From NCBI GenBank assembly GCA_035574275.1, contig DATLYY010000079.1:1-43112 (forward strand): DNA of 43,112 nt. Reading direction: 5' to 3'. The notes under the pieces are model-generated. The model was not told where the DNA came from. It searched no databases and worked only from the letters and a program-made list of their open reading frames with translations. Below are positions 21,687 to 43,112 of the stretch, piece after piece. The position numbers and the translations under genes are program-made. The DNA comes from Verrucomicrobiia bacterium (GTDB taxonomy: Bacteria; Zixibacteria; MSB-5A5; DSPP01). Position 1 is the stretch's first letter; each line of letters opens with the position of its first letter.

Positions 21687-24600
21687 TTAAAATTTCAAGT
21701 CAACGGTGAAGGTGGCCGTCCGGATTTTGTTGGTCTTCTTGTCGATGTTGTTTTTCTGGTCCGTCCACTGCAGCGAGAACCCGCCATCCACCTGCGTGGA
21801 AAAACTGTAGGTGAAGGAGGGGTTGATTGAAAGGGTGGACATGTCCGTGGTGATGCCGGAAGTTCCGGGGGTCGGGTTCAGATTCCGCGAGACCCGGTGG
21901 GAGTACTGAATCGACAGGTTCGTGTTCAGACTGGAGGAAAGCCGGATGCCGCGCAGAAGCGGAAGCCGGATGCCGCGCGGAGCGATGAAGCTGTAGCGGG
22001 TGGAAAGCATGAAGCCGTTTTCCGTGTTCTGGGAGGTGTTGAAAACGCTCGTTCCCTCCGGGCGGGTTTTCATCTCCTGCAGGCTTTTCCGGTAGCTGAA
22101 GTTGGCCGATAGCCCGCGGAAAAACGTGGCGGAGACGGAAACGAGCGGGTTGTGGTTTTTGGCGATGCCTTGGCTAAGCGCCTGCCCCGTGCGCGTGTCA
22201 AAGCTCGTGGTGGTCTGCTTCTGGTAATTGGAGGAGATGGTTCCGGCCGGCAGGATTTTCTTCAAAAATCCGACCCGCCGCTCCAGCCCGGATAAACTGA
22301 CGGTCATGTCGGGAAAAGTTTCCGCCTCCTGCCGGCTGGAGCCGGTGGAGATGCGACCCTGGGTGATGTTTTTGGCATAGCGGCCGTTCACCCGGATGCC
22401 CGAGCCGAGATTCAGTCCGGTCCCCGCCGTGTAGTTGTCCGCCTCCCGTTCGCTGTTCGAACTGCTGGAAACCCCCGCCTCCCCCGGGTCGGTGACCAGC
22501 CCGAATTGAAAATCCAGCCCCGGCCGGTTTCGGAGCCCCTGCCGGCTGATGTTGTTCGTGTGGTTGTAGGTGAACTGAACCGGCTCCACCCGGTCCGCCA
22601 GCTTGCGCACAAAGTTTAGCCCGTTGGAAAGCAAAAAGACCTTCCCGCTCCCCTTCTCCTTGGCCACGGGGGGCGGGACCGGTTTTTTGGCCGAATCTCC
22701 CAGGGCAAAACCGGGGCGGGCGCCATCCGGCGCGGCCCGCATCGTCGTATCGCCCGGGAGCTTGGCCACCCCGCCCGGCGCAACCGGCGTCGGCGGAATG
22801 GGTGCGGGAACTGAAGCCGTATCTTTTTTTGCCGGCCCCAGCCGGGGAAGAATGAACCCAAAGGCCGGAACGGGGAGCGGAACGAACCGGTTCATGCTTT
22901 CGCGAAAACGAATTTCCGCCGGAATCGTGTCCCAGGAAGCCACCTCCCGGCGGCGGGCTTCCGCCGCCGCCCGCGCCAAGCTGTCCGCGATGCGCGCCGA
23001 ATCCAACGGCCAGCGCTCCGCCCGCTTCTTTTCCTCCTCCAGCCTCTTTTTCTCCTCCTCTTTTGCTTTTCGTTCCGATTCTTTTTTCTCCCGCTCGGCC
23101 GTTCTGCGGGCCACCTCCGCCGGCGAGGGGGCTTTTGGCTGTCCCAAAAGCCGGGTCAGATTGAAGTTCACGTTCGCCCCGTAGCCGCTGGAACCCTCGA
23201 TCCGACGGGTGCCGGCCAGCGCCCCCAACCCCACCACCAAAGCCTCGCTATAGGTGGAGGAAAAATTGAGCCGCGTGTCGGCAAAGGAGAAAAGCCCCGG
23301 ATTGTAGCTCGTGCGGAAATCCTGCCGCCGCTCCACCTCCACGCCCAGCTTGAATTTTTTCGGGCTGAAGGAAAACGCCAGGTTCTCCGGATTGGAAATG
23401 TCGCGCCGGGTGTTGAAGCTGTAATCGGCGGAAAGGTTGGGGAAGATGCGGAACCCGGCCGTCATTCGCCCGCGGAAATCCCGGATGTAGGAAACGGTGG
23501 GGCGCTGAAAGGGGTCGTTCAAAATCGTGGTGGAAAGCGTGCGCGCAACGTCCCCGCTCACGTTGAAGGTGGCCGGCAGCGGGGAGAACTGCGTCCCCCC
23601 CACTTTTTTCAAAAGCCAGAAGGAGGGGAGCCACCCCAGCGGTTTGAACCCGAGCGTCTTCTTGGGGGAAAGGTCGTAGGCCAATGAAGCCGTGTAGGAG
23701 CGCTGTTCGGAAAGCTGGGTGAACGGGTCGCTTCCCCGGTAGTAGCTGTAGGAAAAGGAGCCGTTCATCCGGTTGAAGGTCAAATTCCAGAGCTTGTTCT
23801 TGGTCTCCTTGCGCAAACTGGGGGTCACGGAGAATCCCCGGCGAATCTGCTCGGAGCGCTCCGCTTCGGCGAACTCGTCGGTCAAAATGATGTCCGAGCC
23901 GGTGCGCAGCCGCGGCGTGGAGCGGCCGCGGCTCCAGTTGATGGAAATCGGCAGGGCCGAAAAGCCCAAAAACTTGGGCAAAAACCGGTGCCCCTGAAAG
24001 CTTCCGGAAAAACTCAAAAGCTCGGTGGTTGCCGCCGAGCGGTTGTAGGACAAAGTCCCGCTTTCGCTCCCCGTCAGGTTGCGGAAAGTCGCCCCCTGCC
24101 GGCTGGCCTCAAAGTTGACCGTCCCCAAATCTGCCAGCTGGGTGGAAAGATGGAAGCGCCCGGCCGTGCCGGTTTCCCGGCGCACGTCGGTCAAAATCAG
24201 CTCGTTCGTCCAGACCTCGCCGGAGGCCGCCCGCGTGGAGTCCAGGTTCTCCACCCCCATCACGTACCAGCGCACCGCCGCCAGACTCGGGTTCCCCCGC
24301 ACCCGGTAGTTGCCGTCGATGGTGTCCTGCACCACGGAAGTCGGGCGCGGGCTTTTGATGAGCAGGTTTTTCAGATTCGTCAGCCGGTTGAAATCCATTT
24401 CCACAAAATTGTTCAAATCCCAGCCCGGTTTCAAAAGCACCCGGTACTCATAGAAATTGTCCGGGTCGTTCTGCGTGCCGGAGCCGAAGCGTAGAAAGAA
24501 CAGAAGCGAATCGGAAAGGTTGTCCGCCGGGTTGCCGATTTGCCGGTCCCCGTGCACCATCATCTTCAAGTTCCGGTAGCCGGAGTAATCCTCCACCCCG

Positions 24601-27600
24601 CCCAAAAGCACCCGCTGCAAAAGCCCCTGGTTCTGCGGCCCGATATTCTCGTAGGTCAAAACGAGCGACTGTTCCCGCTCCCGCAGGTTGGTCGTTTTGT
24701 TCAAAACCTCCCCCACCCCCGGCGGCGGGTCGGCCCGGTAGGCCGGGTGTTCCTGCGAATTGATTACGGAGACCCGCACCTTCTGGCTGTCGGTCACCGG
24801 CTTCAGCGAATCGTCAAAAACCCCCAGCTCCTTCCAGCGGTTCCCCACCAAATCCAAACTGGCGAAGATGATTCGGGAGGTGTCAATCCCCTCCAGCCAA
24901 ATGCGCACAAACTGGATATTGCTCCAGGAAGGGCTTCCTCCCACTATTTTTGCCACGCTCGTGTCCTTCAGCGGCACCCGTATCAGCCGCCAGCGAATGG
25001 CCCGATTCTCACCGGGGCGGACTTCCGGTTGGTTATCTTTGTTTAGGTTGAAGTCGTTGTAGCGACTCGACCCGGGCACCACAAACCGGGTGGTGTCGTT
25101 CAAATCGACCGTAAAGGAGAAATAACCGTCCGCTCCCCCCAACCCGCCGTCGTCGTTCAAATCCTCTTTGTCCGGCTTGGAAAGCCACTCCGGGTCTTGG
25201 TTGTTTTTCTCCGTTCCATTGATGCTGTCAATGGAAATGCCCCAGTTGTCGTTGCTTGAATCCGGATCCGGAATGCCGTCCAGCCCCACATCCTGTTCCG
25301 GCGGAATCGTTCCAATCCGCGCCGGGTCCTCGGTTTCGGGATTTCCACCGTCACCATCGATATCTTCGCTTATCTGCCCAAAATCAAAATGCAGTCGCGG
25401 CGCCGTGGTGCTCTCCTCCAGCCCCACCCAGAATTCCAAAAGCTGCGTTTCCTGATGGTTTTGATTGCCGCTGCCCAGCCAGCGCATTATCCCAGCCCAT
25501 CCGGTTGTGTCCGGAAAGCCGGTGGTATCCGTTTTCGGAAAGTAGCGCAGTTCGAGAACGTCCATTCCTTCTTCTTGGGTCCCCACGGAACGGTCCGGGA
25601 AGATTTCCAAAATGCGAAATCGCCGAACGGCCAGATTGTTGTTGCGAGGATCGAAAATCTTGTTATCCGGCACGTACCAGGCCAGCCGCCCGCGGTTGGT
25701 TTGGGTTTTTCCCGCTGGCGCCGAGGATTTGGTCCAGGTGGTCCGCCGGATCCCCAAACTCGAAAAATCCCGGCTCCCTTCAAAGTCGTCAATGTATGCC
25801 CTCCCCAGCGTGTTCGGGTTCGGCATGCTCCGGGCGATTTCTCCGTCCAGCTGAAAGGCGGAGGGGGCCACCGCGGTGACCATCGGCAGCTTGTCCAAAA
25901 GCCTGGTTACAAAGTTGCTCTGCCCGGTGTAGGCGAAATCGGCGTCCAGAAGCAGGGCATGGTTCGGCTCCTCGCCGATTCTCGGCTTCTGGTCGATGGT
26001 GGAGGAGTTGCGGTAGAGAACGGTGGAGCCGAACCGGAACTGCTCCGAGGTGGAATATTCCGTCCGCAGCCCGAAAAGGTTTTTCTTCTGCGAGGACAAA
26101 AACGGCTGGTATTCGTAGTTCACCTGCACATCGGCGTTCGGGTCGGTCACCCGGGAATTGTAAAAGGTGATGGTCCCGAGCTGGTAGTCGATGCGGTAAT
26201 CCTGGTCCCGGATGAGCTTCTGTCCGTTTAAGCGCACGTCCTCGGACCCTTCCAGAATATCCACCTGCCCCAGCGAAAACTCCGTCCGCCGGGCCTTGGT
26301 CGCTATTTCAAGGTAATATTTACCCAAAGCCACCCCGGCGCTGTCGGAATTGTAAATGACGGGGTTTTTCACCTTTAATACCCCAGCCGATCCCCCCACA
26401 AAATTCTTTGTGGGGTTGAAGGGGTAGCGGTCGGGAAAAATGATATGCCCCAATTCCTCCTGCACGATGGAATAGTCGTAATTTAAATCAACGATGCCAT
26501 CCGGAATCGTATCTCCGGATTGATTGTTGACCTGGTCCAGCCCCAAAAGCTCGATGTAGCGCACCCCGCCGGCCCCCGGTGTTCCCTGATAGTCCTTGCG
26601 GCTTAAATCGTTCGCCTCGCTGATGTCCCCTTCATAAATCTTCGCCCCGAAGCCGTCCCGGTCCAAATTCGGCTCCCGCAAATCATACACATTTTTCCAT
26701 TCGTAGTAATAGCTCGGATTCAGAGGGTTTGCCGCGTCCCGTTTGAGAAGCTTCAACACGTACCGCTGCGCGCTGAAATTGGTGGTATCCGCTCCAAGCG
26801 GCCAGTAGGCATAGCCGATAGTGTCCAGCCGACCGGTTGCCCCGCGGCGAACCTGCATCATGTAACCTATTTTGTCCGCTGCGTTCAAAGGATACTTAAA
26901 AACCACGTAAAAGGAGTCCCGGTTCAACAGATACTGGTCACGGGGGATTTGCAAAAAAAATCCCCCCACCACCGGTTCGCTTTTCGGATTGGTCAGTGTA
27001 TCAAGCGTATCGAGAGGATTAAGGAAACACCTTCCGTAAGGTAACTGGTTTTGGGTTTGATTGCTGTAAAGCTCCGCCTTGAAAAATATCGGATCCCCTT
27101 CGATGGTATCCCGCCCACCGGAAGCGTCCAAGTCAAATTCATCCGTAAAAGGGGGCATTCCGCCGCCCGAATCCGGTTTGGCAATCCCCTTTTTCCCCAA
27201 ATCAAAGTAGGTATAGCGCAGATAATTTTTGTCCGCAATCCGCACGGTGGTCGCCTCCGCCCCCGCCCGGAAGCTCTTCCCCTGCGAAGACCCCTTCTGC
27301 TGGCTGGCGATGGTGGTCCAGTTGAAGCCGCCTAATTTCCCCTGCGCCTTTACGCCAAAAAGCCCCTGCACCGATTGCGAAAACCCGGCGTAGCGCGTTC
27401 CCCCCAGCGAAAGCGTGGTGTTCCCCGCCTCGATGGTCTGCACCAAGTCATCCTCTTCCCCCTTGTAACGGATTTGAATCCGGTCCGACAAATCCAGCCG
27501 CTGGTTGTACTGGTTGGAGCTTTTGTCCGTCTTCATGTTTACGAAAAGCTTGGAGCCGACGTTGCCGGTGATATACATGTTGTATTCCTGCAGGGTCTGG

Positions 27601-28226
27601 AAGCTGGGGGTCCCCTGCCGGACGACGCCGACGTTGTTGTTCACCCCGGTGGTGTAGTTTTTGTCCAGCTTGAAAAGCACCTTGTAGTTGCCGGTCACCG
27701 AAAGCCCCGGCCCCCCCTCGCCGACCAAACTGGATATGACCTTGGGAAACTTCACCGGGATATCGACGTTCAAAAGCCCCTTCCCCCCCTTTCCAAAAGT
27801 GGAGACCGACTTGCCGACGGAGGCCCTTTTGGTATTGTTCCAGTCCGCCCGCCCGCGGAACTCGCTGCGGGACAGAGCCGCGTCCGAAAGCTCAAAAATC
27901 CGGTAATCCCCGTTCCGGTTCAGTTCATCCCGGTTGAAATAGTAACTCCGGCTGGATAAAAACTGGTTTTCATCGTCGATGTCGTGGTAGCTGCGCAAGT
28001 AATTGGGGGCCGGCAGCCAGGCCACGCTGTCCCGCCCCATGGCCAGCCCCTGCCGGGTGGAATCGCAAAAAAGCCGGCACTCGTTGCCGGAAAGCAAATC
28101 CAGTTTTAATCCTTGGGAGAAAGCAAAAGTGGGAAAAACAAAAATAGCCAAAGCCAGAATGGCTTGGGCTTTCTTGTCCCGAGCGAAGACGAGGGACCAA
28201 TTTTTTCTACAACAACCGTTCTTCAT
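21687..28226 (-). CDS. sprA: SprA-type giant outer-membrane protein (type IX secretion pore homologue)
   Basis: This 2179-residue protein has a signal peptide (ILALAIFVFPTFAFSQ) and a long beta-rich body. Stretches such as VGSKLFVNMKTDKSSNQYNQRLDLSDRIQIRYKGEEDDLVQTIEAGNTTLSLGG, DGIVDLNYDYSIVQEELGHIIFPDRYPF, and ARPYIDDFEGS-like AYIDDFEGSRDFSSLGIR are typical of SprA/Sov. That protein forms the 36-strand outer-membrane pore of the type IX secretion system in Bacteroidetes. Length is near the family norm (about 2300). A Lys/Glu-rich helical and Pro-rich segment (about residues 1700-1860) interrupts the C-terminal barrel. The only in-frame ATG is at 28226 and has a weak ribosome site, with a strong AAAGGAGG about 50 nt earlier. 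It is followed by the glutaminyl-cyclase gene in an operon. Whether a full secretion system exists cannot be seen here. Confidence 0.88.
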   Translation of the reverse strand: MKNGCCRKNWSLVFARDKKAQAILALAIFVFPTFAFSQGLKLDLLSGNECRLFCDSTRQGLAMGRDSVAWLPAPNYLRSYHDIDDENQFLSSRSYYFNRDELNRNGDYRIFELSDAALSRSEFRGRADWNNTKRASVGKSVSTFGKGGKGLLNVDIPVKFPKVISSLVGEGGPGLSVTGNYKVLFKLDKNYTTGVNNNVGVVRQGTPSFQTLQEYNMYITGNVGSKLFVNMKTDKSSNQYNQRLDLSDRIQIRYKGEEDDLVQTIEAGNTTLSLGGTRYAGFSQSVQGLFGVKAQGKLGGFNWTTIASQQKGSSQGKSFRAGAEATTVRIADKNYLRYTYFDLGKKGIAKPDSGGGMPPFTDEFDLDASGGRDTIEGDPIFFKAELYSNQTQNQLPYGRCFLNPLDTLDTLTNPKSEPVVGGFFLQIPRDQYLLNRDSFYVVFKYPLNAADKIGYMMQVRRGATGRLDTIGYAYWPLGADTTNFSAQRYVLKLLKRDAANPLNPSYYYEWKNVYDLREPNLDRDGFGAKIYEGDISEANDLSRKDYQGTPGAGGVRYIELLGLDQVNNQSGDTIPDGIVDLNYDYSIVQEELGHIIFPDRYPFNPTKNFVGGSAGVLKVKNPVIYNSDSAGVALGKYYLEIATKARRTEFSLGQVDILEGSEDVRLNGQKLIRDQDYRIDYQLGTITFYNSRVTDPNADVQVNYEYQPFLSSQKKNLFGLRTEYSTSEQFRFGSTVLYRNSSTIDQKPRIGEEPNHALLLDADFAYTGQSNFVTRLLDKLPMVTAVAPSAFQLDGEIARSMPNPNTLGRAYIDDFEGSRDFSSLGIRRTTWTKSSAPAGKTQTNRGRLAWYVPDNKIFDPRNNNLAVRRFRILEIFPDRSVGTQEEGMDVLELRYFPKTDTTGFPDTTGWAGIMRWLGSGNQNHQETQLLEFWVGLEESTTAPRLHFDFGQISEDIDGDGGNPETEDPARIGTIPPEQDVGLDGIPDPDSSNDNWGISIDSINGTEKNNQDPEWLSKPDKEDLNDDGGLGGADGYFSFTVDLNDTTRFVVPGSSRYNDFNLNKDNQPEVRPGENRAIRWRLIRVPLKDTSVAKIVGGSPSWSNIQFVRIWLEGIDTSRIIFASLDLVGNRWKELGVFDDSLKPVTDSQKVRVSVINSQEHPAYRADPPPGVGEVLNKTTNLREREQSLVLTYENIGPQNQGLLQRVLLGGVEDYSGYRNLKMMVHGDRQIGNPADNLSDSLLFFLRFGSGTQNDPDNFYEYRVLLKPGWDLNNFVEMDFNRLTNLKNLLIKSPRPTSVVQDTIDGNYRVRGNPSLAAVRWYVMGVENLDSTRAASGEVWTNELILTDVRRETGTAGRFHLSTQLADLGTVNFEASRQGATFRNLTGSESGTLSYNRSAATTELLSFSGSFQGHRFLPKFLGFSALPISINWSRGRSTPRLRTGSDIILTDEFAEAERSEQIRRGFSVTPSLRKETKNKLWNLTFNRMNGSFSYSYYRGSDPFTQLSEQRSYTASLAYDLSPKKTLGFKPLGWLPSFWLLKKVGGTQFSPLPATFNVSGDVARTLSTTILNDPFQRPTVSYIRDFRGRMTAGFRIFPNLSADYSFNTRRDISNPENLAFSFSPKKFKLGVEVERRQDFRTSYNPGLFSFADTRLNFSSTYSEALVVGLGALAGTRRIEGSSGYGANVNFNLTRLLGQPKAPSPAEVARRTAEREKKESERKAKEEEKKRLEEEKKRAERWPLDSARIADSLARAAAEARRREVASWDTIPAEIRFRESMNRFVPLPVPAFGFILPRLGPAKKDTASVPAPIPPTPVAPGGVAKLPGDTTMRAAPDGARPGFALGDSAKKPVPPPVAKEKGSGKVFLLSNGLNFVRKLADRVEPVQFTYNHTNNISRQGLRNRPGLDFQFGLVTDPGEAGVSSSSNSEREADNYTAGTGLNLGSGIRVNGRYAKNITQGRISTGSSRQEAETFPDMTVSLSGLERRVGFLKKILPAGTISSNYQKQTTTSFDTRTGQALSQGIAKNHNPLVSVSATFFRGLSANFSYRKSLQEMKTRPEGTSVFNTSQNTENGFMLSTRYSFIAPRGIRLPLLRGIRLSSSLNTNLSIQYSHRVSRNLNPTPGTSGITTDMSTLSINPSFTYSFSTQVDGGFSLQWTDQKNNIDKKTNKIRTATFTVDLKF

Positions 28227-32075: not shown

Positions 32076-34193
32076 TCAACTCGTCTCCAGAAAGGTAAGG
32101 GTTTTCCCCCACCGGCGCAACAAATTCTGAAAGCGGGACACCGGCTCCTTTTTCTCGAACAAAACCTCCTCCGCTTTCTTGCGCGCCCGGTGTATGAGCT
32201 CCAAATCATCCAGCCGCGCAATTTTCAAATCCGGGAAGCCGTGCTGCCGCAGTCCCAAAAATTCCCCCGGCCCCCGCAGCTCCAAATCCAGCTCGGCGAT
32301 TTTGAACCCGTCCCGTTCCTTCGTCAACGCTTCCAGCCGCGCCTTGGCGGTAGCCGAAATGTTGGGCGGAGAAATCAAAATGCAGTACGATTTCTCCGCT
32401 CCCCGTCCCACCCGGCCGCGCAATTGATGCAGTTGCGCCAGCCCGAACCGCTGGGCTTCTTCCACAATCATCAAAGTGGCGTTGGGGACATCCAACCCCA
32501 CTTCGACCACGCTCGTGGCCACCAGAAGCTTCAGCTTTCCGGACGAGAACCCCTCCATAACTTTTATCTTCTCGTTTCCTTTAAGCTTGCCGTGCAGAAG
32601 TCCGACTGAAAATTCGGAAAAGATTTTCATTAGGTTTTCGAATTCCGCCTTGGCTGCTTTCAAATCGGATTTTTCCGATTCCTCAATCACTGGATAAACC
32701 ACGTACGCCTGACGGCCTTTGGCCAGCTCGGTTTTGACGAAATTCCAAATCTCCGGCTTTTTCTCCTCCGTCCGGTACGCCGTGGTGATGGGCGCCCGCC
32801 CCGCCGGAAGCTCTTTGATGACCGACATATCCAAATCTCCGTACGCCGTCAAGGCCAGCGAGCGGGGTATCGGCGTGGCGGTCATCGCCAAAAGTTCCGC
32901 CTCCCTTCCCTTCCGCTTCAAAAGCCCCCGTTGCGAGACGCCAAAGCGGTGCTGCTCATCCACCACCACCAGCGCCAGCTCCTTGAATTCCACCGTCGGC
33001 TCGAGTAGCGCGTGTGTGCCGACGGCCAATTTCAATTCACCGGAGGCCAGCCCGGCCAAGAGTTTTTCCCGCTGGGCGTTTTTGACCGAGCCGGTCAAAA
33101 GCCCCGCTTCTATTCCCAGTTTGGAATACCAAGCCGAAAGCGTCCGGAAATGCTGCTCCGCTAAAACCTCCGTCGGCGCCATCAAAACGGCCTGATAGCC
33201 GTTCTCCACGGCGAAGGCCATGGTGGCGGCCGCCACCGCCGTCTTTCCGGAGCCCACGTCCCCCTGCAAAAGCCGGCTCATCGGGTAGGGGGACAAAATG
33301 TCGGTGAAGATCTCCGCCAAGGCCTGGTTTTGCGCCGCCGTCAATTTGAATGGTAGTATCGAATAGAATTCTTCGACCAGTTTCCCCGGCGGCCGGAAGG
33401 TCCGCTCTTTCGGATGCAAACGCAACTTACGCTTGCGCCCGAGGAGCACCAGCTCCAGGGCGAAAAGCTCGTCGAACGCCAGCCGGTTCCGTGCCCGCTC
33501 GGCGTCCTCCAGCGTTTCCGGAAAATGGACGTGCTTGAGCGCCCACCCCAACTCCGGCAGCGACAGCTTCTCCAGTTCCTCCTTTTGCCATAAATCAAAA
33601 AACAGTTCGGAGTGTTTGTCGATTAAATCAAACATCAAACGCCGCATCCCCCGCGAATCGAGCCGCTTGGCCTTCAGCCCGGCCGTCGAGGGATATAAAG
33701 GTATCACCCGCCCGGTGTGCAGAAATTTCTGCTCCTCCGGGCCGCCGACGATTTCAAAATCCGGATGGGTCATCTGCAGAGTGCCGTAGAGGGAAACGAC
33801 GCCGGAAGCCGCCACCTCCATCCCCTTCTCAAAGTAGCCGGGCAAAAAAGAGGGAACGTGGAACCAGACCAAAGCCAGATACCCCGTCCCATCGTGCAGA
33901 GTGACCACAAACCGCTGCGTCCGCCGGCGCACAACCCGCACGTCCAGAACGTTGCCGACGACTGTGACCTCCTCCCCCACTTTCAAATCGCCAATTTTCA
34001 CCACCCGGCTTCGGTCCAAGTAACGGCGTGGCAAGTAATAGAGAAAATCCTCGACGGTTTCCACGCCGACCTCGGACAGCGCCTTGGCTCTTTCCGGCCC
34101 CACCCCTTTCAAATACTGAACGGGTGAGGAAAGCTCCACCTTCCCCGGCCGGACGACCTTTGCCGGAACTACTTTTTTCTTTTCAACCGGCAT
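32076..34193 (-). CDS. recG: ATP-dependent DNA helicase RecG
   Basis: RecG remodels stalled replication forks and Holliday junctions. The 705-residue protein has an N-terminal wedge/OB domain (about 20-190, starting VQYLKGVGPERAKALSE), helicase motifs PMSRLLQGDVGSGKTAVA (Walker A about 310-317), VVVDEQHRFGV (DEQH about 412-415), MTATPIPRSLALTAYGD, and the C-terminal VGRGAEKSYCI, EVGLDVPNATLMIVE. It ends with the RecG-typical GPGEFLGLRQHGFPDLKIA. Its ATG (34193) lies inside the 3' end of rsmB (25 bp overlap), so translation is coupled. A normal, complete gene. Confidence 0.97.
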   Translation of the reverse strand: MPVEKKKVVPAKVVRPGKVELSSPVQYLKGVGPERAKALSEVGVETVEDFLYYLPRRYLDRSRVVKIGDLKVGEEVTVVGNVLDVRVVRRRTQRFVVTLHDGTGYLALVWFHVPSFLPGYFEKGMEVAASGVVSLYGTLQMTHPDFEIVGGPEEQKFLHTGRVIPLYPSTAGLKAKRLDSRGMRRLMFDLIDKHSELFFDLWQKEELEKLSLPELGWALKHVHFPETLEDAERARNRLAFDELFALELVLLGRKRKLRLHPKERTFRPPGKLVEEFYSILPFKLTAAQNQALAEIFTDILSPYPMSRLLQGDVGSGKTAVAAATMAFAVENGYQAVLMAPTEVLAEQHFRTLSAWYSKLGIEAGLLTGSVKNAQREKLLAGLASGELKLAVGTHALLEPTVEFKELALVVVDEQHRFGVSQRGLLKRKGREAELLAMTATPIPRSLALTAYGDLDMSVIKELPAGRAPITTAYRTEEKKPEIWNFVKTELAKGRQAYVVYPVIEESEKSDLKAAKAEFENLMKIFSEFSVGLLHGKLKGNEKIKVMEGFSSGKLKLLVATSVVEVGLDVPNATLMIVEEAQRFGLAQLHQLRGRVGRGAEKSYCILISPPNISATAKARLEALTKERDGFKIAELDLELRGPGEFLGLRQHGFPDLKIARLDDLELIHRARKKAEEVLFEKKEPVSRFQNLLRRWGKTLTFLETS

Positions 34194-35461
34194 ACGAAAA
34201 CCCCGTCGGTTTCATACTCTCCCGGCAAAATCACCACGTTCCCCTGCGTATCGCAAAATTCTTTCCCCGCCCAAGCTTCCGAACTCTCCCGTTCGAATTC
34301 TGGATGCCCGGCCAAAAATTTTTCGCAAGCGTTCCAGTTTTCCTCCGTCGTCAGCGTGCAGGTGGAATAAACAATAATTCCTCCGGGTTTGACCAGCCCC
34401 GCGGCCCGTTCCAGAAATTGCAAGGCCTGTGCGCCGAGCCGCACGGCATCCTCCTTTTTCTTTTCCCAGCGCAACTCCGGGTGCCGTGCCATCGTTCCAA
34501 GCCCAGTGCACGGCGCGTCAATCAAAATTTTATCAAATTTCTGCTTGAACGGATGCGTCAAAAAATCCCCGGTGACCAGATGAACACCCTTCACTCCGAG
34601 CCGCTTGAAGTTCCCCGCCATAACCTGCATCCTTCGGGGACTTCTCTCCACCGCCGTGATACTCGCGCCCGATTCAGCAATCAAAGCCGTCTTTCCTCCC
34701 GGCGCCGCGCAGGCGTCCAGAATTTCCTCGTTCGGATGCGGGTCCAAAACCCGCACGGCGAGCATTGTCGAGGGATCTTGAATGTATCCCTTCCCCTCCC
34801 GCAAAAGCTCAAAATCGGTCAAGGAGATTTCTTTCCTGATTTTGTAAAAATTCAAAAACCGAAGGCACCGCTCCCATTCGAATTTCTGCTTGGCAAGAAA
34901 TGAAAAAAACTCCTCCTCATTGGTTTTCAACCGGTTTAGGCGCACAAAAGTCGCCGGCGCTCCGTTCCCCCAAGCCAGCATCCGTATTGTCTTTTCCCGG
35001 CCAAACAAACCGAGCCACTCCTCCACAATCCAGCTCGGATAGGAATACGTTCCCGCCAGCTCATCCGCCGCATCGGTGAACGAGAGCGCCGGTCGCTCAC
35101 GCAAAAACTTCCGCAAACAGCCGTTCACCACACCGGAAAGTTTGCCTAAGCGGAACACTTTCGCCAGCTCCACGGCGTCGTTCACCACGGCATACTCCGG
35201 CCATTTTTTTTCTTCCAGTTGGAATAGCGAAAGTAGAAGAATCGCTTTCAAAGTAACGGGAGGATTTTCTTTTGCTAAAAGCAGGGGCAAAAATCGCTCC
35301 AGCCGCCCGAATTTTTTGATGGTTCCGACCACCAGCTCCCAGACCAAGCTACGGTCCTGGGCCGAAAGCCCCGCAACGCCGCGCAGCGCCTGTTTGGGAT
35401 CCCCGCCCGCTTCCAGCCAGCCGGCCAGAATTTTTGCCGCCGCCCGCCGCGCGGGGGAAAT
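34169..35461 (-). CDS. rsmB: 16S rRNA m5C methyltransferase RsmB, apparent ATT start
   Basis: RsmB methylates C967 of 16S rRNA with SAM. The protein has an N-terminal NusB-like domain (SPARRAAAKILAGWLEAGGD, then KQALRGVAGLSAQDRSLVWELVVGTIK). Next is the NOL1/NOP2/Sun catalytic part: EEILDACAAPGGKTALIAE (SAM site), DKILIDAPCTGLGTMARHPELRWE (PCT motif with a catalytic Cys), and GGIIVYSTCTLTTEENW (second catalytic Cys). Starting at ATT 35461 gives 430 residues, close to E. coli RsmB. No ATG, GTG or TTG lies between the upstream stop (TAA 35495-35497) and the middle of the NusB-like domain. The first standard start is TTG 35347, which would cut the domain. The frame is the same as the upstream gene's, with only a TAA between. 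recG overlaps its 3' end. Confidence 0.9.
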   Translation of the reverse strand: MSPARRAAAKILAGWLEAGGDPKQALRGVAGLSAQDRSLVWELVVGTIKKFGRLERFLPLLLAKENPPVTLKAILLLSLFQLEEKKWPEYAVVNDAVELAKVFRLGKLSGVVNGCLRKFLRERPALSFTDAADELAGTYSYPSWIVEEWLGLFGREKTIRMLAWGNGAPATFVRLNRLKTNEEEFFSFLAKQKFEWERCLRFLNFYKIRKEISLTDFELLREGKGYIQDPSTMLAVRVLDPHPNEEILDACAAPGGKTALIAESGASITAVERSPRRMQVMAGNFKRLGVKGVHLVTGDFLTHPFKQKFDKILIDAPCTGLGTMARHPELRWEKKKEDAVRLGAQALQFLERAAGLVKPGGIIVYSTCTLTTEENWNACEKFLAGHPEFERESSEAWAGKEFCDTQGNVVILPGEYETDGVFVCRLKRKK

Positions 35462-35494: not shown

Positions 35495-37885
35495 TTATCT
35501 CACCTCGTGGGGCGAAAGAAGATTCCCATCGGCAAAAATCAAAAGCTCCCGCCGGATAAAAACCGCCTCCTGCGTCACCATCTCCGGCAGCCCCATTCCG
35601 ACCAAGACCTCCTCCGGCCGGGCGTAGTCCCCCCCTGCCATCACCAATTCCATTTTAAGCCCGTGTCCATTCGGCTCCAGCCCCCGCACGAACGGGCGCA
35701 CGTTCACCCGTTTTCGCTCCCCCTCGGAACTCCGCTCCACCCATACCTCTTTTTCTTCCAGAAATTTTGCGCAGCGAGTTGACTCGACCGCTCCCGGCAG
35801 CCGGACTTCATAGCGGGCCACGTTCACGCTGGCCGAAAGGGATTCTGTCTTGGCCAGAATCGGCTGGGCATCGATGAGCGAAAATCCCGGCGGCAGGGCT
35901 GCAGCCAGCCGGGCAAAAAACTCCTGCCGGTACGGCTGCTCGAAGCGGATATCCAGATATTCCGCCGTGGAAAGATGGCCGAGCGGCAGAGCTGGCCCGA
36001 ACGCCACCTTCATTTTCGGGTGAAACCCCTGCGAATACGAAACCGGCAGCCCGGAGCGGCGCAAAGCCCGCTCAAAAACTTTGATGACGTCGAGGTGGGA
36101 GGAATACCGCGCCGCCTCCCCCTTCTCCCAGCGGAAGCGGATGACCGTGTTCGGCACTTGCAGTGCCTCGGGGTGGAAGCGAATTCTCCGTTTGGCGCGC
36201 CCGTATTGCATTTCCCCGCCCGAAGCCGAGGCTGCCGTCGTCGGCGGCTCCAGCGAGAGCGTAATCGGCGCGCCCGATTTTTTGACGACCGGAACCCGGT
36301 ACGCCCAGTCCGTGGGTAGCCCGGAGCCCCCGCTCCGGGGTTCGGTGCCTAAAAACTCCGCGCCCAAAACTTCTGTTGCTCTGACGCCCATTTCTTGGAG
36401 CACCCAGTCCAGCCGACGGTAATCCGCTCCGTCGTCCGGCGTCTCATCCGGCTTGATGTGAGCGGCATAACCCGCAATAAAATCCGCAACTTTATCGCCG
36501 AGCCGTTCCCACAACCCGGTCAGATAAATCTGTTCCGGCGGCTCGTAGCGCAGTTGCAGATTGCGGGCCGAAAGATGCTTTTTCAAAAGTTCCTGCCGCC
36601 GGGTGACTTCGGACGGCCCAATCAAAGCCCCCTTCCACAATCCTTGATGCGGCACGGCGGAAAAAACCCCCAAATACCCCCGCAGCATCGTCCGCCCGGA
36701 ACCCCGCCGCACTTCCGACGCCACCCGGTTCAAAAACTCGGCCGTCTCGGCAATCTCCTCCTCCGTTTCATTCGGAAAACCTAAATACAGGTACAGCCGG
36801 ATTTGTTTGGGTGCAAGATTCAAAACCTCCCGCACCTTTTCGAAAATCTCCCCCTCCCCGGCTTGCACCCCCAAAAGCTTCCGGTTCCGTTCAACGCCGG
36901 AGCCGAGGTAAAACCCGGCGCCGAGTACGGAACTCTTTCGCAAAACCGCCAAAAGCTCCGGCGTGAACAGCTCCGGCTTCAGGTTGGAAAAATCCAGCTT
37001 GCCGTACACCTTGCTCATGTAACCGGCCAGCGAAGCCGCCAGCGGCGCCAAAGGCAAAGGCGGCTCCCCGCCCGCAAAGTCGAACCGCACGTCGTCATAG
37101 CCGGAGGCAAAAACCAGGTTCTGCAAATCCACCGCCGCCGCCGTGACGTCCAAATCCCCGGTGAGCCCGTCCAGCCGGATATTCAAAAACGAGCTTTCCG
37201 GGTCGAGCGTGGGAATCAAAAGTTTGGGGAAATAATTTCGATATTCCGACGGCGTTATCGCCGGATGCCCTTTTTTGCTTTGATTGGTGGCATAGATGGT
37301 CGCCCCTTCCAGATTTTCCAAAAACCTTTGCCGGTCAAACTTCTCATTCAGATTGGACAAACTTCTCGAAAGTGCAACGGCCGCGGCGAACCCTTCGAGA
37401 TGAACCGCCGTGTCGAAAAACCGCCCCAATCCCCCGCTCCAGAGCGACCCCTTGCCGAACGTGGCGACCACCGCTCCCCCACCCCGCTTTTCCCTTTCTG
37501 CTTCGAGGCCGGCCAGCTCCATCAATCGCGGAAAAAAGAAATGGTCCCTTTTCCGCTCTGTTTGGAACAGAATCAAATCGAATTCCTTCACCGGCCGCCC
37601 GGACTCTACGGTGAAAAGCGGCACGCCTTCTTCCTTCATCACCTTCTGGGCGTCCGGCGCCGGCAGATACGCCCGCTCCACGGCAATATCCGGATGGTTG
37701 TTCAAAACGGCATATGCCTGCCGGTGTTCGAAGGAGGAAATTGCAAACTCGTACAAATCCGGATAGAGCAGCACCGCCCGGATTTTCTGCCCCTCTTTTT
37801 TAAAGCTTCCCAGCTCCCCGTCGGTGTACCGCCCCGGCCGGATGACGAACGGCAAAAATTCTTTTTCGATTTTCATATCGGACAT
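35495..37885 (-). CDS. TIGR03960/DUF2344-type protein lacking the radical SAM cysteines
   Basis: The 796-residue protein follows the plan of TIGR03960 proteins fused to DUF2344 (TIGR03936): an N-terminal B12-like domain (LYPDLYEFAISSFEHRQAYAVLN, PAPDAQKVMKEEGVPLFTVES), a radical SAM-type TIM-like middle, and a C-terminal DUF2344 (FRWEKGEAARYSSHLDVIKVFERALRRSGLPVSYSQGFHPKMKVAFG, from about residue 578). The CxxxCxxC cluster motif is absent: the stretch where it belongs (about 225-270) reads as SSFLNIRLDGLTGDL, then AAVDLQNL, then ASGYDDVRF. The whole protein has one cysteine, in the DUF2344 part. The reading frame is intact. TIGR03960 genes usually lie near rpmA/rpsU-type translation genes; here it precedes rsmB. 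Start ATG 37885; a second ATG is at 37876. Function unknown. Confidence 0.8.
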   Translation of the reverse strand: MSDMKIEKEFLPFVIRPGRYTDGELGSFKKEGQKIRAVLLYPDLYEFAISSFEHRQAYAVLNNHPDIAVERAYLPAPDAQKVMKEEGVPLFTVESGRPVKEFDLILFQTERKRDHFFFPRLMELAGLEAEREKRGGGAVVATFGKGSLWSGGLGRFFDTAVHLEGFAAAVALSRSLSNLNEKFDRQRFLENLEGATIYATNQSKKGHPAITPSEYRNYFPKLLIPTLDPESSFLNIRLDGLTGDLDVTAAAVDLQNLVFASGYDDVRFDFAGGEPPLPLAPLAASLAGYMSKVYGKLDFSNLKPELFTPELLAVLRKSSVLGAGFYLGSGVERNRKLLGVQAGEGEIFEKVREVLNLAPKQIRLYLYLGFPNETEEEIAETAEFLNRVASEVRRGSGRTMLRGYLGVFSAVPHQGLWKGALIGPSEVTRRQELLKKHLSARNLQLRYEPPEQIYLTGLWERLGDKVADFIAGYAAHIKPDETPDDGADYRRLDWVLQEMGVRATEVLGAEFLGTEPRSGGSGLPTDWAYRVPVVKKSGAPITLSLEPPTTAASASGGEMQYGRAKRRIRFHPEALQVPNTVIRFRWEKGEAARYSSHLDVIKVFERALRRSGLPVSYSQGFHPKMKVAFGPALPLGHLSTAEYLDIRFEQPYRQEFFARLAAALPPGFSLIDAQPILAKTESLSASVNVARYEVRLPGAVESTRCAKFLEEKEVWVERSSEGERKRVNVRPFVRGLEPNGHGLKMELVMAGGDYARPEEVLVGMGLPEMVTQEAVFIRRELLIFADGNLLSPHEVR

Positions 37886-40016: not shown

Positions 40017-42584
40017 TTACAGTAGCGCAGCAGATAAAACCGACAATTCGGATAACAATGAAGGGCGCAACTGTTCAAACTCTTTTTGTTTAACTTTCAA
40101 ATATTTCCAATTCTTTCCGGTCAATTTTGTGGCGTTTTCAGCCCAAAGTTTTGCGGCGCGGTCTTTGTGTTTTACGTTTTCGGTTTCTTGGCCTTTGGTT
40201 TCCAATATCCAATATGTTTCCTCCGTATCCAATGCAACAAAGTCCGGGTAGTAATAGCCCAAATTCATTGCCGCATCCAAATAGTCAATAGAAAAACCGA
40301 AAACCATAGGAAGTTTTGAAAATGCCTTGACATCTTCTGCCGAATCCAAAAATTTGGCAAAAGTTTTCTCAAATTCATTATCGCATGGAACCAAATTGAA
40401 AACGGTTTTTCGGCCCTCCCAAACGGGACGGGACCATGGAAAGGGTTCCGTTTCGGAAAGGAATCTTTCCGGTATGACCAACTCTGGCTGAAGTTCGGAG
40501 ACCGCTTTTCCCCGCAGCGCCTTGCCAAAAGCACGGGTACATACAAATTGCGCTACGTTAGAATTCATTGCTTTTATTACGGATTTATCCTCCAAGTCAA
40601 CTTTTTTGCCAAAAGCTTTGTTTTCAAAAAAATCGGTCACTTTGGGAGCCAAAGCCGCAAATTGGGAAGGAAGTTTCACTTCTTGGGCTATTTGACGGGC
40701 GTAGTAGCCAATAATTTCCTGCGCCGTTTGGGGATCCGGTATTGCATATTCCCTCTCAAATAATTTTTCCAAGTTAATAATGTCGTACCCTTCGTACATA
40801 AACTTATCCGCGGCCACATCTTTCTTGCTCATTGGGATTACCGGACAATCGAATGTCATTACGTCCAATTCTGCAATTTCTTCGGCCAAGCTCTTTTTTC
40901 GCATTAAGGATGGCGTTAAAATCGGCAAGCCAATGTCAAATTTCTTCTTTTCCTCAGCAGGCATAATCGTTAAAATTTTAAGGCGGTCTTTTCCAATTTC
41001 AAAGGTATCCAATGGGATACCTTCGACTTTTTCCAGTTCGTCCACAAAAGTCAAAAACGCATTGTTGCCGATGACATCTACTCTTTCTTTGTAGCCGACA
41101 GGCAGACCGCGAAACATCAAGCGCAGACCGCGGCCAATAGTTTGCTCCGGTAAAATTTTTGCTTTTGAACTGTACGGCCGCAAACCAACCACGACGGTAA
41201 CGTTCTGCACGTCCCACCCTTCCCGAAGCATCAGTACGCTGACGATGCCGTTAACCGGGTTTTCCCCGTGGTCCACATCTTTGGCTAACTTTCTGGCTTT
41301 TTCCAAATCTGCTTTGGTAATTTCCCCTTTTGTATCGGTATGAATTATCAAGGTTTGTTCGCCGCCAAATTCTTTTGGATATTTAACTTTCAACCAGTCG
41401 CCCACATCATCCGCTTCATCGGTACTGTTCAGCATTATGAACAAAATCGGTTTTTTATTCAGCGGGGCCAGTTGCTCGTAGTATTCCCTCCACCGCTCCA
41501 CTCCCGCAATCAGAAAGGGCTTGTACTTGGTGCTGGCAATATTGGATTTTGCTTCAGCGAAACGAGCGATGCCTTTGACTGGTCTTTTCACAATTGCATC
41601 CCGAATAGCTTGCAGTAGCGGATAGTCGAAAATTGTCCAAGGAAAGATTTCTCCTTTTTGAAACCGAGGTGTAGCCGTAAAATCAAGTTGTGCCGAGAGC
41701 GGTGTTTTAGTATGAAGATCCCGAATTATTTTGTTCCACTCATTCTCTTCATCGTGTGTGTGGTGGGCTTCGTCATTTACCACCAAAAGTTTGCCACTTC
41801 GCAAGGCAATTCTTTCGCTAAAATCCGTAAAGTCCAACTTTTGGGTTGGGGGTTTTGAACCCATTACAGCGGTCATTTGTTCTGGCTCTTGGTCGTTTTG
41901 CCGCCCGGTTCGTTCATAGAATTGCTGAATGTTGGTGAGGAACAGAGTTCCTTCGTAGTGCGGTCTTTCGCCATCCCCCCGCATAACGCAGTCAAAATCC
42001 CAGAATATTTCCAAAGAGCGAGGAATCATTTGGTCGGCTTTGAAAATCCTGCCGCTCTGAAAGTCGGTTTTGAGCCGTTCGAAGACAATTACATTGGGGG
42101 CAATCACCAAAAAGGTTTTGGCATAATCTTCGCCGCCTTCCCGGACGGCGTTTAAAAACTGCCAGACGATGGCCAAAGCCATAACTTTGGTCTTTCCGCT
42201 ACCCGTGGCCATTTTGATACAATACCGGGCAAATTCGTCATAGGGCGGAAGCCGCACTCCTTTGAGGTCTTGCGCGTATCGTTCCAACAAACCTTTGCGG
42301 GTTCTTACTTTTTCATATTCCCATACATAAATCAAGGTTTCGATGGCATCCCGCTGGGAATAGTGATAGGCAAATGGCTGGCCGCTTGGCAAACGATGGT
42401 CGGTTTTGAACCAGTGATTCAGCAAAATTTGGGTTGTTTCGGTAGTGCCTTTGTAGCCACCGGCCCGCCAAGCTTTTAACGCTTCGCGCAGGGCGGGGAC
42501 GCAGGGGGCGGTTTTTAACCGGGAACTGACATCGATAAGGTCTTGCTGGGAAATATCTGATGCTTTTTTTCTGGTGCGAGGCAC
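40017..42584 (-). CDS. Type III-like restriction enzyme Res subunit
   Basis: The 855-residue protein has a superfamily II helicase/translocase core: ATGSGKTKVMALAIVWQF (Walker A about 125-131), VVNDEAHHTHDEEN (DEAH about 271-274), LDFTATPRFQ, LMLREGWDVQNVTVVVGLRPY, PEQTIGRGLRLMF. A C-terminal PD-(D/E)XK nuclease follows with YYPDFVALD...YWILETKGQE (about 777-800). This is the layout of type III restriction subunits, which translocate along DNA and cut invading DNA after meeting a second complex. It starts with GTG, overlapping the TAG of the methyltransferase gene by one base. The region is AT-richer than the rest of the window, a sign of transfer. The partner Mod is cut by the window edge. 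Confidence 0.9.
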   Translation of the reverse strand: MPRTRKKASDISQQDLIDVSSRLKTAPCVPALREALKAWRAGGYKGTTETTQILLNHWFKTDHRLPSGQPFAYHYSQRDAIETLIYVWEYEKVRTRKGLLERYAQDLKGVRLPPYDEFARYCIKMATGSGKTKVMALAIVWQFLNAVREGGEDYAKTFLVIAPNVIVFERLKTDFQSGRIFKADQMIPRSLEIFWDFDCVMRGDGERPHYEGTLFLTNIQQFYERTGRQNDQEPEQMTAVMGSKPPTQKLDFTDFSERIALRSGKLLVVNDEAHHTHDEENEWNKIIRDLHTKTPLSAQLDFTATPRFQKGEIFPWTIFDYPLLQAIRDAIVKRPVKGIARFAEAKSNIASTKYKPFLIAGVERWREYYEQLAPLNKKPILFIMLNSTDEADDVGDWLKVKYPKEFGGEQTLIIHTDTKGEITKADLEKARKLAKDVDHGENPVNGIVSVLMLREGWDVQNVTVVVGLRPYSSKAKILPEQTIGRGLRLMFRGLPVGYKERVDVIGNNAFLTFVDELEKVEGIPLDTFEIGKDRLKILTIMPAEEKKKFDIGLPILTPSLMRKKSLAEEIAELDVMTFDCPVIPMSKKDVAADKFMYEGYDIINLEKLFEREYAIPDPQTAQEIIGYYARQIAQEVKLPSQFAALAPKVTDFFENKAFGKKVDLEDKSVIKAMNSNVAQFVCTRAFGKALRGKAVSELQPELVIPERFLSETEPFPWSRPVWEGRKTVFNLVPCDNEFEKTFAKFLDSAEDVKAFSKLPMVFGFSIDYLDAAMNLGYYYPDFVALDTEETYWILETKGQETENVKHKDRAAKLWAENATKLTGKNWKYLKVKQKEFEQLRPSLLSELSVLSAALL

Positions 42585-43112
42585 TATTTTACCTCAACTT
42601 GAACGGCCTTGGTCGTATCGTTCCCTAAAATGTCAATGACTTTTACGACAATTGTATATTGTCCCGGTTTTTCGTAGTTATTGGAAATTTCTTTTTGCAA
42701 ATCCGGGTTTTTGCGGGTGCGGTAGCTTTGCCACTGGTTGTGGAAGGTGTCCCCTTTGAAGTCCCAATCCACCGCCCAATAATCTATCCACTGGCTCCAA
42801 TGCTTTATCGCCTTTTGAACGTCCGCCGGAACGTCATCCGGCGGTATGACAAAATCTTTCAGCTTTAAACTGACCTGCCGTCCTTTAGCTTTAACGTCAA
42901 CCTTCAAAGCCGCCAGTTCATAAAAATGAATGTCTCCCTGCTCCACCGCTTTCTTTTCCAAAACTTCACGCGGAATTTTTTTGAAGGACACATCCACCCT
43001 TGCTTCTTCCGCCACTTGTTTGGCCATTTCGTTTATTTCGAAGGCGAATTCCCAGCCCAAAATATCAACACCGGCGGTTTTGGGAGAATCTTTTCCCGTT
43101 CCTATCGCCCGC
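42584..43112 (-). CDS. Type III-like DNA methyltransferase Mod subunit, C-terminal part
   Basis: Only the last about 175 residues lie in the window (the frame is open to the right edge and ends with TAG 42584-42586). The visible sequence (AIGTGKDSPKTAGVDILGWEF, ARVDVSFKKIPREVLEKKAVEQG, DFVIPPDDVP, IDYWAVDWDFKGDTFHNQWQSYRTRK, VVKVIDILGNDTTKAV) matches the C-terminus of large adenine methyltransferases that pair with the neighbouring Res type. Catalytic motifs (DPPY) would lie outside the window. The one-base overlap with the res GTG shows tight coupling. Mod methylates the recognition site and gives specificity to the pair. Confidence 0.75.
   Translation of the reverse strand, partial: RAIGTGKDSPKTAGVDILGWEFAFEINEMAKQVAEEARVDVSFKKIPREVLEKKAVEQGDIHFYELAALKVDVKAKGRQVSLKLKDFVIPPDDVPADVQKAIKHWSQWIDYWAVDWDFKGDTFHNQWQSYRTRKNPDLQKEISNNYEKPGQYTIVVKVIDILGNDTTKAVQVEVK

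Follow-up and report, generated by a model that had tools for sequence, protein, structure and literature searches.

What becomes of a radical SAM enzyme when the cysteines that hold its cluster are gone and its reading frame stays open is the question raised by one gene in the window, i.e., the whole stretch of 43,112 nucleotides analyzed in this study. The gene (positions 35,495 to 37,885, minus strand) starts with ATG, contains no internal stop and encodes a protein of 796 amino acids, the sole cysteine of which, C705, is located in the tail, as the sequence-only reading had described. Homology to the TIGR03960 and DUF2344 families in the usual domain order, also claimed there, was recovered by Pfam and NCBIfam matches. 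Radical_SAM_N2 (PF19864) was detected at residues 57–194 (E 1.3e-18) within an eroded N-terminal domain (residues ~16–200; 37,286–37,840), followed by a vestigial radical SAM core (residues ~201–470; 36,476–37,285), in which PF04055 matched by its C-terminal part only (residues 304–385, 18.6 bits, under the cut-off). In the alignment, a conserved YGR tripeptide (residues 561–563; 36,197–36,205) stands just ahead of the tail, which consists of the DUF2344/TIGR03936 domain (residues ~576–765; 35,591–36,160), all of these features lying on the minus strand. Here, PF10105 matched at residues 582–749 (E 1.1e-44; 152.9 bits versus a cut-off of 23.8), and TIGR03936 passed its threshold with 165.5 bits versus 71.9; for TIGR03960, the protein reached 112.2 bits and remained below the curated cut-off of 462.3. 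The significance of the latter match (E 2.4e-32) and the existence of relatives with intermediate scores (462, 409, and 345 bits) point to common ancestry with the TIGR03960 family over the full length. A search by sequence retrieved no solved structure. Neither TIGR03960 nor TIGR03936, which represent an uncharacterised family, is named in any paper found among 5.39 million open ones, and nothing relevant turned up on radical SAM proteins whose motif was lost.

The loss of the entire [4Fe-4S] motif was borne out by an alignment with 95 full-length relatives carrying all three cysteines, comprising 92 proteins of the same class and three outgroups obtained from a related-locus search. The CxxxCxxC columns fall on residues ~241–244 of the window protein (~37,154–37,165), where the loop is deleted, and the former motif region contains no Cys. 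The orthologue in G001, a second genome from the window's genus, has 75–80% identity and showed the identical deletion in an open frame of 807 amino acids, and a genome of the same order (G002) encodes a motif-less orthologue in a frame of 825 amino acids. That an assembly, frameshift or coding artefact conceals the motif is therefore hardly credible, since the frame is continuous and the deletion recurs in an independent genome at this level of divergence, and nothing was found in its favor in the draft assembly of 79 contigs. Within the barrel of both proteins of the window's family (f1), the stretch FAGGEP was observed (residues ~270–275 of the window protein, ~37,060–37,080, minus strand) at the position occupied by an SLSSTDY-type stretch in canonical TIGR03960 relatives; its similarity to the GGEP motif found in other radical SAM enzymes may be fortuitous.

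To place this protein among its relatives, 132 genomes of the class were searched with PF10105, of which 123 were positive; at the level of the phylum, the search yielded no further class. DUF2344 is also present in Thermotoga maritima and Synechococcus elongatus. Most genomes of the class keep CxxxCxxC. However, 18 full-length relatives besides the window protein lack at least one motif cysteine, each of them in an intact frame. These 19 proteins belong to the families f1 (two), f2 (one), f6 (three), f9 (one in each of the genera g26, g31, and g46), f17 (three), f15 (two), and f3 (five). The extent of the change differs between them: in G035 (g31), the first Cys alone is altered (SxxxCxxC), G006 and G033 feature AxxxCxxC, the motif of G029 aligns as A-C-A, and in f1, f2 and others the whole motif loop is gone. 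In a fourth f9 genus, g20, represented by three genomes (loci L064, L065, and L066), only an open reading frame of ~250 amino acids encoding DUF2344 is left, and this stand-alone domain is a natural minimal form.

The check for a second, canonical copy proposed in the sequence-only reading was negative, as the window's genome (99.9% complete; 2.5 Mb in 79 contigs) encodes no other copy. Among the genomes with motif-less proteins, only those of f3 and f15 carry a canonical one, namely a distinct copy with CTEGCRFC, which is present in addition to the motif-less copy where the latter was found. These CTEGCRFC proteins (~900–957 amino acids; L154, L156, L157, L159, L160, L162, L164, L166, and L168) branch outside all other class members, and several of them adjoin further radical SAM genes. 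At locus L088 (G082), the canonical copy is broken into frames of 296 and 553 amino acids just past CPQGCRFC, which is either a misassembly or a recent lesion such as would precede loss. Two genomes, G016 (96% complete) and G021 (89%), showed no DUF2344 match, which is due either to real loss or to an assembly gap.

A single monophyletic Cys-less clade, as had been envisaged, was not obtained. The full-length tree, calculated from 744 columns with the motif region left out, requires at least four motif changes, all on well-supported branches, and joins f1, f2, f17, f3, and f15, i.e., the most eroded lineages, where long branches meet. A second tree was based on the DUF2344 region alone, which is hardly accelerated. 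It needs ten changes (8–10 in the bootstrap), at least five being forced by well-supported branches, and dissolves the above grouping: f17 is placed with canonical f16, f1 and f2 fall among f10, f13, and f19, and the three full-length f9 cases lie among canonical f9 genera. Since the long branches meet in the first tree and the lineages scatter in the second, long-branch attraction is the better reading of the apparent clade. As judged from these phylogenies, the catalytic heart of the protein appears to have been lost independently at least five times within one bacterial phylum.

Comparison of conserved positions revealed erosion in the catalytic half only. With columns counted as invariant when at least 93% of the canonical proteins agree, the window protein keeps 23 of 40 in the N-terminal domain, 16 of 52 in the radical SAM core, 4 of 8 in the linker, and all 18 in DUF2344. 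Its identity to canonical relatives, expressed relative to the between-family baseline, amounts to 0.43 for the radical SAM core, 0.55 for the N-terminal domain, and 0.97 for DUF2344, the last value being at least 0.78 in all motif-less lineages. TIGR03960 scores accordingly form a graded series from canonical proteins (721 bits) through G035 (462.2), f6 (409), f2 (345), and the window protein (112) to f3 (no match) and g20 (without the domain), whereas the TIGR03936 scores of these proteins stay between 162 and 188 bits (canonical 188, G035 173, f6 162, f2 178, window 165, f3 163, and g20 172). Two elements outside DUF2344 survive in nearly all motif-less proteins: the near-universal N-terminal KPxRYxGxE, which reads RPGRYTDGE at residues 16–24 of the window protein, and the GR of YGR, present in 19 of 19 full-length cases and as FGR in the stand-alone protein of L066.

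Furthermore, all parts of the protein are under purifying selection. The dN/dS value between the window gene and its G001 orthologue is 0.13 overall, in agreement with the predicted value below 1, and 0.114, 0.137, and 0.099 for the N-terminal domain, the radical SAM core, and DUF2344, respectively; the neighboring genes rsmB and recG reached 0.09 and 0.10 in the same genus. Other motif-less pairs with estimable dS remained below 0.42. For the radical SAM core, motif-less pairs yielded 0.14–0.38 versus 0.04–0.13 for canonical congener pairs, indicating that the barrel is still constrained, though less than formerly. This faster evolution of the catalytic half and the loss of most of its invariant residues are what slow pseudogene decay would predict, with a gene on its way out and a frame open by chance. 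However, dN/dS values far below 1 in every domain, 18 further motif-less full-length proteins with intact frames, and an unaccelerated DUF2344 with all its invariant columns largely refute this reading, which we consider very improbable. A tail that remains nearly unchanged while the catalytic heart is lost repeatedly argues for a job of DUF2344 that does not depend on catalysis.

As to the nature of this tail, a TruA-like pseudouridine-synthase fold is likely. Structure prediction covered the window protein and three homologues (two of them from Aminicenantes), and the AlphaFold models are accordingly of low confidence, with pLDDT values of 48 for the full-length window protein and 65 for the DUF2344 domain only. 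Searched against the PDB with Foldseek, the full-length model retrieved two sets of structures, namely radical SAM enzymes led by MiaB, and PUS3, TruA, and Pus1. For the DUF2344 model, TruA ranked first (E 9.5e-6), with pseudouridine synthases making up the majority of the top matches; the best TruA/PUS matches ranged between E 1e-5 and 1e-4 with TM-scores of ~0.4 at the model pLDDT values of 48–65. Pfam places DUF2344 together with the pseudouridine synthase domain PseudoU_synth_1 (PMC7955657), and TruA is among the weak PF10105 profile matches within the class. Direct comparison of DUF2344 and TruA by hhalign was weak (probability 22%, P 1e-3), as was that by HMMER. Because of the low-confidence models and the weak sequence comparison, the fold is likely rather than proven, and RNA binding by DUF2344 is suggested by this predicted fold.

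The same observations bear on the idea that DUF2344 is itself an active enzyme, e.g., a divergent pseudouridine synthase for which the radical SAM half was an optional partner. The putative TruA-like fold, the presence of invariant Arg, His, Glu, and Asp residues, and a constraint that acts on the domain irrespective of the radical SAM half would agree with such an activity. However, in the profile alignments, which are weak, the catalytic Asp of TruA (RTDAGVH; GRTDxGVH) corresponds to a Pro-containing DUF2344 stretch without a conserved Asp, and a genuine TruA is already encoded in the window's genome. We therefore regard an active DUF2344 as rather unlikely.

A new role of the barrel, either catalytic or in ligand binding, such as SAM or B12 binding without radical chemistry, deserves somewhat more attention, albeit as a minority view. 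In most motif-less lineages, the remnant is close to full length and under purifying selection (0.137 for the radical SAM core within the window's genus), and both f1 barrels share the new GGEP stretch. On the other hand, g20 dropped the barrel entirely, and the remnants of independent lineages have few conserved residues in common, which disfavors one common new activity.

Correlates of the loss were evaluated for genomes at least 90% complete, comparing those with a motif-less copy only with the rest. The former encode a median of 9 PF04055 proteins per genome versus 17 (Mann–Whitney p 3.5e-5) and 1 PF02310 protein versus 3, and the haem-copper oxidase PF00115 was detected in 12 out of 13 of them versus 39 out of 61. 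The motif-less genomes of f6, with 13–17 radical SAM proteins, are exceptions. When independent pairs on the tree were considered, the direction of the trend was kept (~3 to 1 and 2.5 to 0.1) without significance, the pairs being too few to reach 0.05. Loss is thus commonest in genomes poor in radical SAM proteins, but the link fails the phylogeny-corrected test, and oxygen or radical-SAM depletion was not retained as the driver despite the clear raw association.

The tie to a neighboring rRNA methyltransferase, raised in the sequence-only reading, was strengthened by the analysis of gene order. The next gene downstream is rsmB (34,169–35,347, minus strand), encoding the 16S rRNA m5C967 methyltransferase with NusB and RsmB domains (Pfam, NCBIfam), followed in an apparent operon by recG (32,076–34,193, minus strand; Pfam, NCBIfam); a DUF4388 protein is encoded upstream. 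Across the class, rsmB lies immediately downstream in 104 out of 131 loci, typically followed by genes for a PASTA protein, rpe, ffh, and rpsP, the place of which is taken by recG in the window's genus. The adjacency is common to canonical copies, most motif-less copies, and the stand-alone DUF2344 of g20, and was lost in the motif-less copies of f3 and f15, where an amidohydrolase gene is usually next. Based on this linkage, 16S rRNA is the first candidate target; however, operon inertia, and not a functional tie, may explain why the two genes stay together. Elsewhere in the window, positions 21,687–28,226 (minus strand) encode a 2179-amino-acid SprA-like protein (PF14349, motility/type IX secretion) of a type known from FCB-group bacteria; together with the single class of the phylum, this would fit an FCB-type candidate phylum, albeit as a guess. 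An 855-amino-acid ResIII/RE_endonuc protein, partly resembling the BPTD_3080 restriction endonuclease family, is encoded at 40,017–42,584 (minus strand); its gene adjoins an open reading frame (42,584–43,111) that runs past the window end.

Taken together, we favor, with some reserve, a transition from a B12/radical-SAM RNA-modifying enzyme to a non-catalytic RNA-binding chaperone or assembly factor, in line with the earlier proposal of a pseudo-enzyme that retains a binding role; RNA binding and target are deduced from the predicted fold and the gene neighborhood. The ancestor would have been a B12-binding radical SAM enzyme with a C-terminal TruA-like DUF2344 domain. The joining of radical SAM and B12-type domains to such a domain suggests that it probably modified RNA, with DUF2344 holding the RNA. 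The [4Fe-4S]/SAM site would then have disappeared from the proteins of the window's genus and, in independent events, from those of at least four further lineages of the class, possibly as the need for radical chemistry relaxed in oxygen-respiring lineages. The catalytic half would have decayed to a structural remnant under continued former constraint on DUF2344, one genus (g20) being reduced to this domain alone. The present protein probably still binds the RNA of its ancestor but no longer modifies it, and it may act on rRNA (or tRNA) as a chaperone or assembly factor, together with the adjacently encoded RsmB.

More tentatively, DUF2344 could be the essential core of a conserved bacterial rRNA/tRNA maturation factor with a TruA-like fold. 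The attached B12/radical-SAM module would then have an accessory activity, which lineages discard time and again when they lose radical SAM enzymes. If so, separation of function would have occurred naturally in these proteins, in the extreme leaving just the isolated domain. In either case, the loss of catalysis in this uncharacterised family appears, from the proteins compared, real and recurrent. Such recurrent, domain-specific loss constitutes a natural experiment, in which the DUF2344 tail is kept and radical chemistry seems dispensable, with RNA as the suggested target. Moreover, it warns against taking every annotated radical SAM enzyme with a DUF2344 domain to be active, as such proteins can be catalytically dead.

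Compared to known systems, the window protein shares with the TIGR03960 family the domain order, the N-terminal element, and, as is usual in the class, rsmB downstream, but differs by the deleted CxxxCxxC loop and the loss of 36 out of 52 invariant radical SAM columns. With respect to TIGR03936/PF10105, it is a full match above the cut-off with complete conservation of the invariant columns; however, its DUF2344 is no longer joined to a working radical SAM half, and in g20 the domain stands alone. TruA, Pus1, and Pus3 resemble the tail in predicted fold and through the Pfam grouping, but sequence similarity is marginal and their catalytic Asp is apparently absent in DUF2344. TruB and TrmA, which act in tRNA folding as chaperones independently of catalysis (PMC11301382), provide the model for an RNA-modifying enzyme that keeps a role without catalysis; their chaperone role was proven by experiment, whereas the TIGR03960/DUF2344 family is known here from sequences and models.
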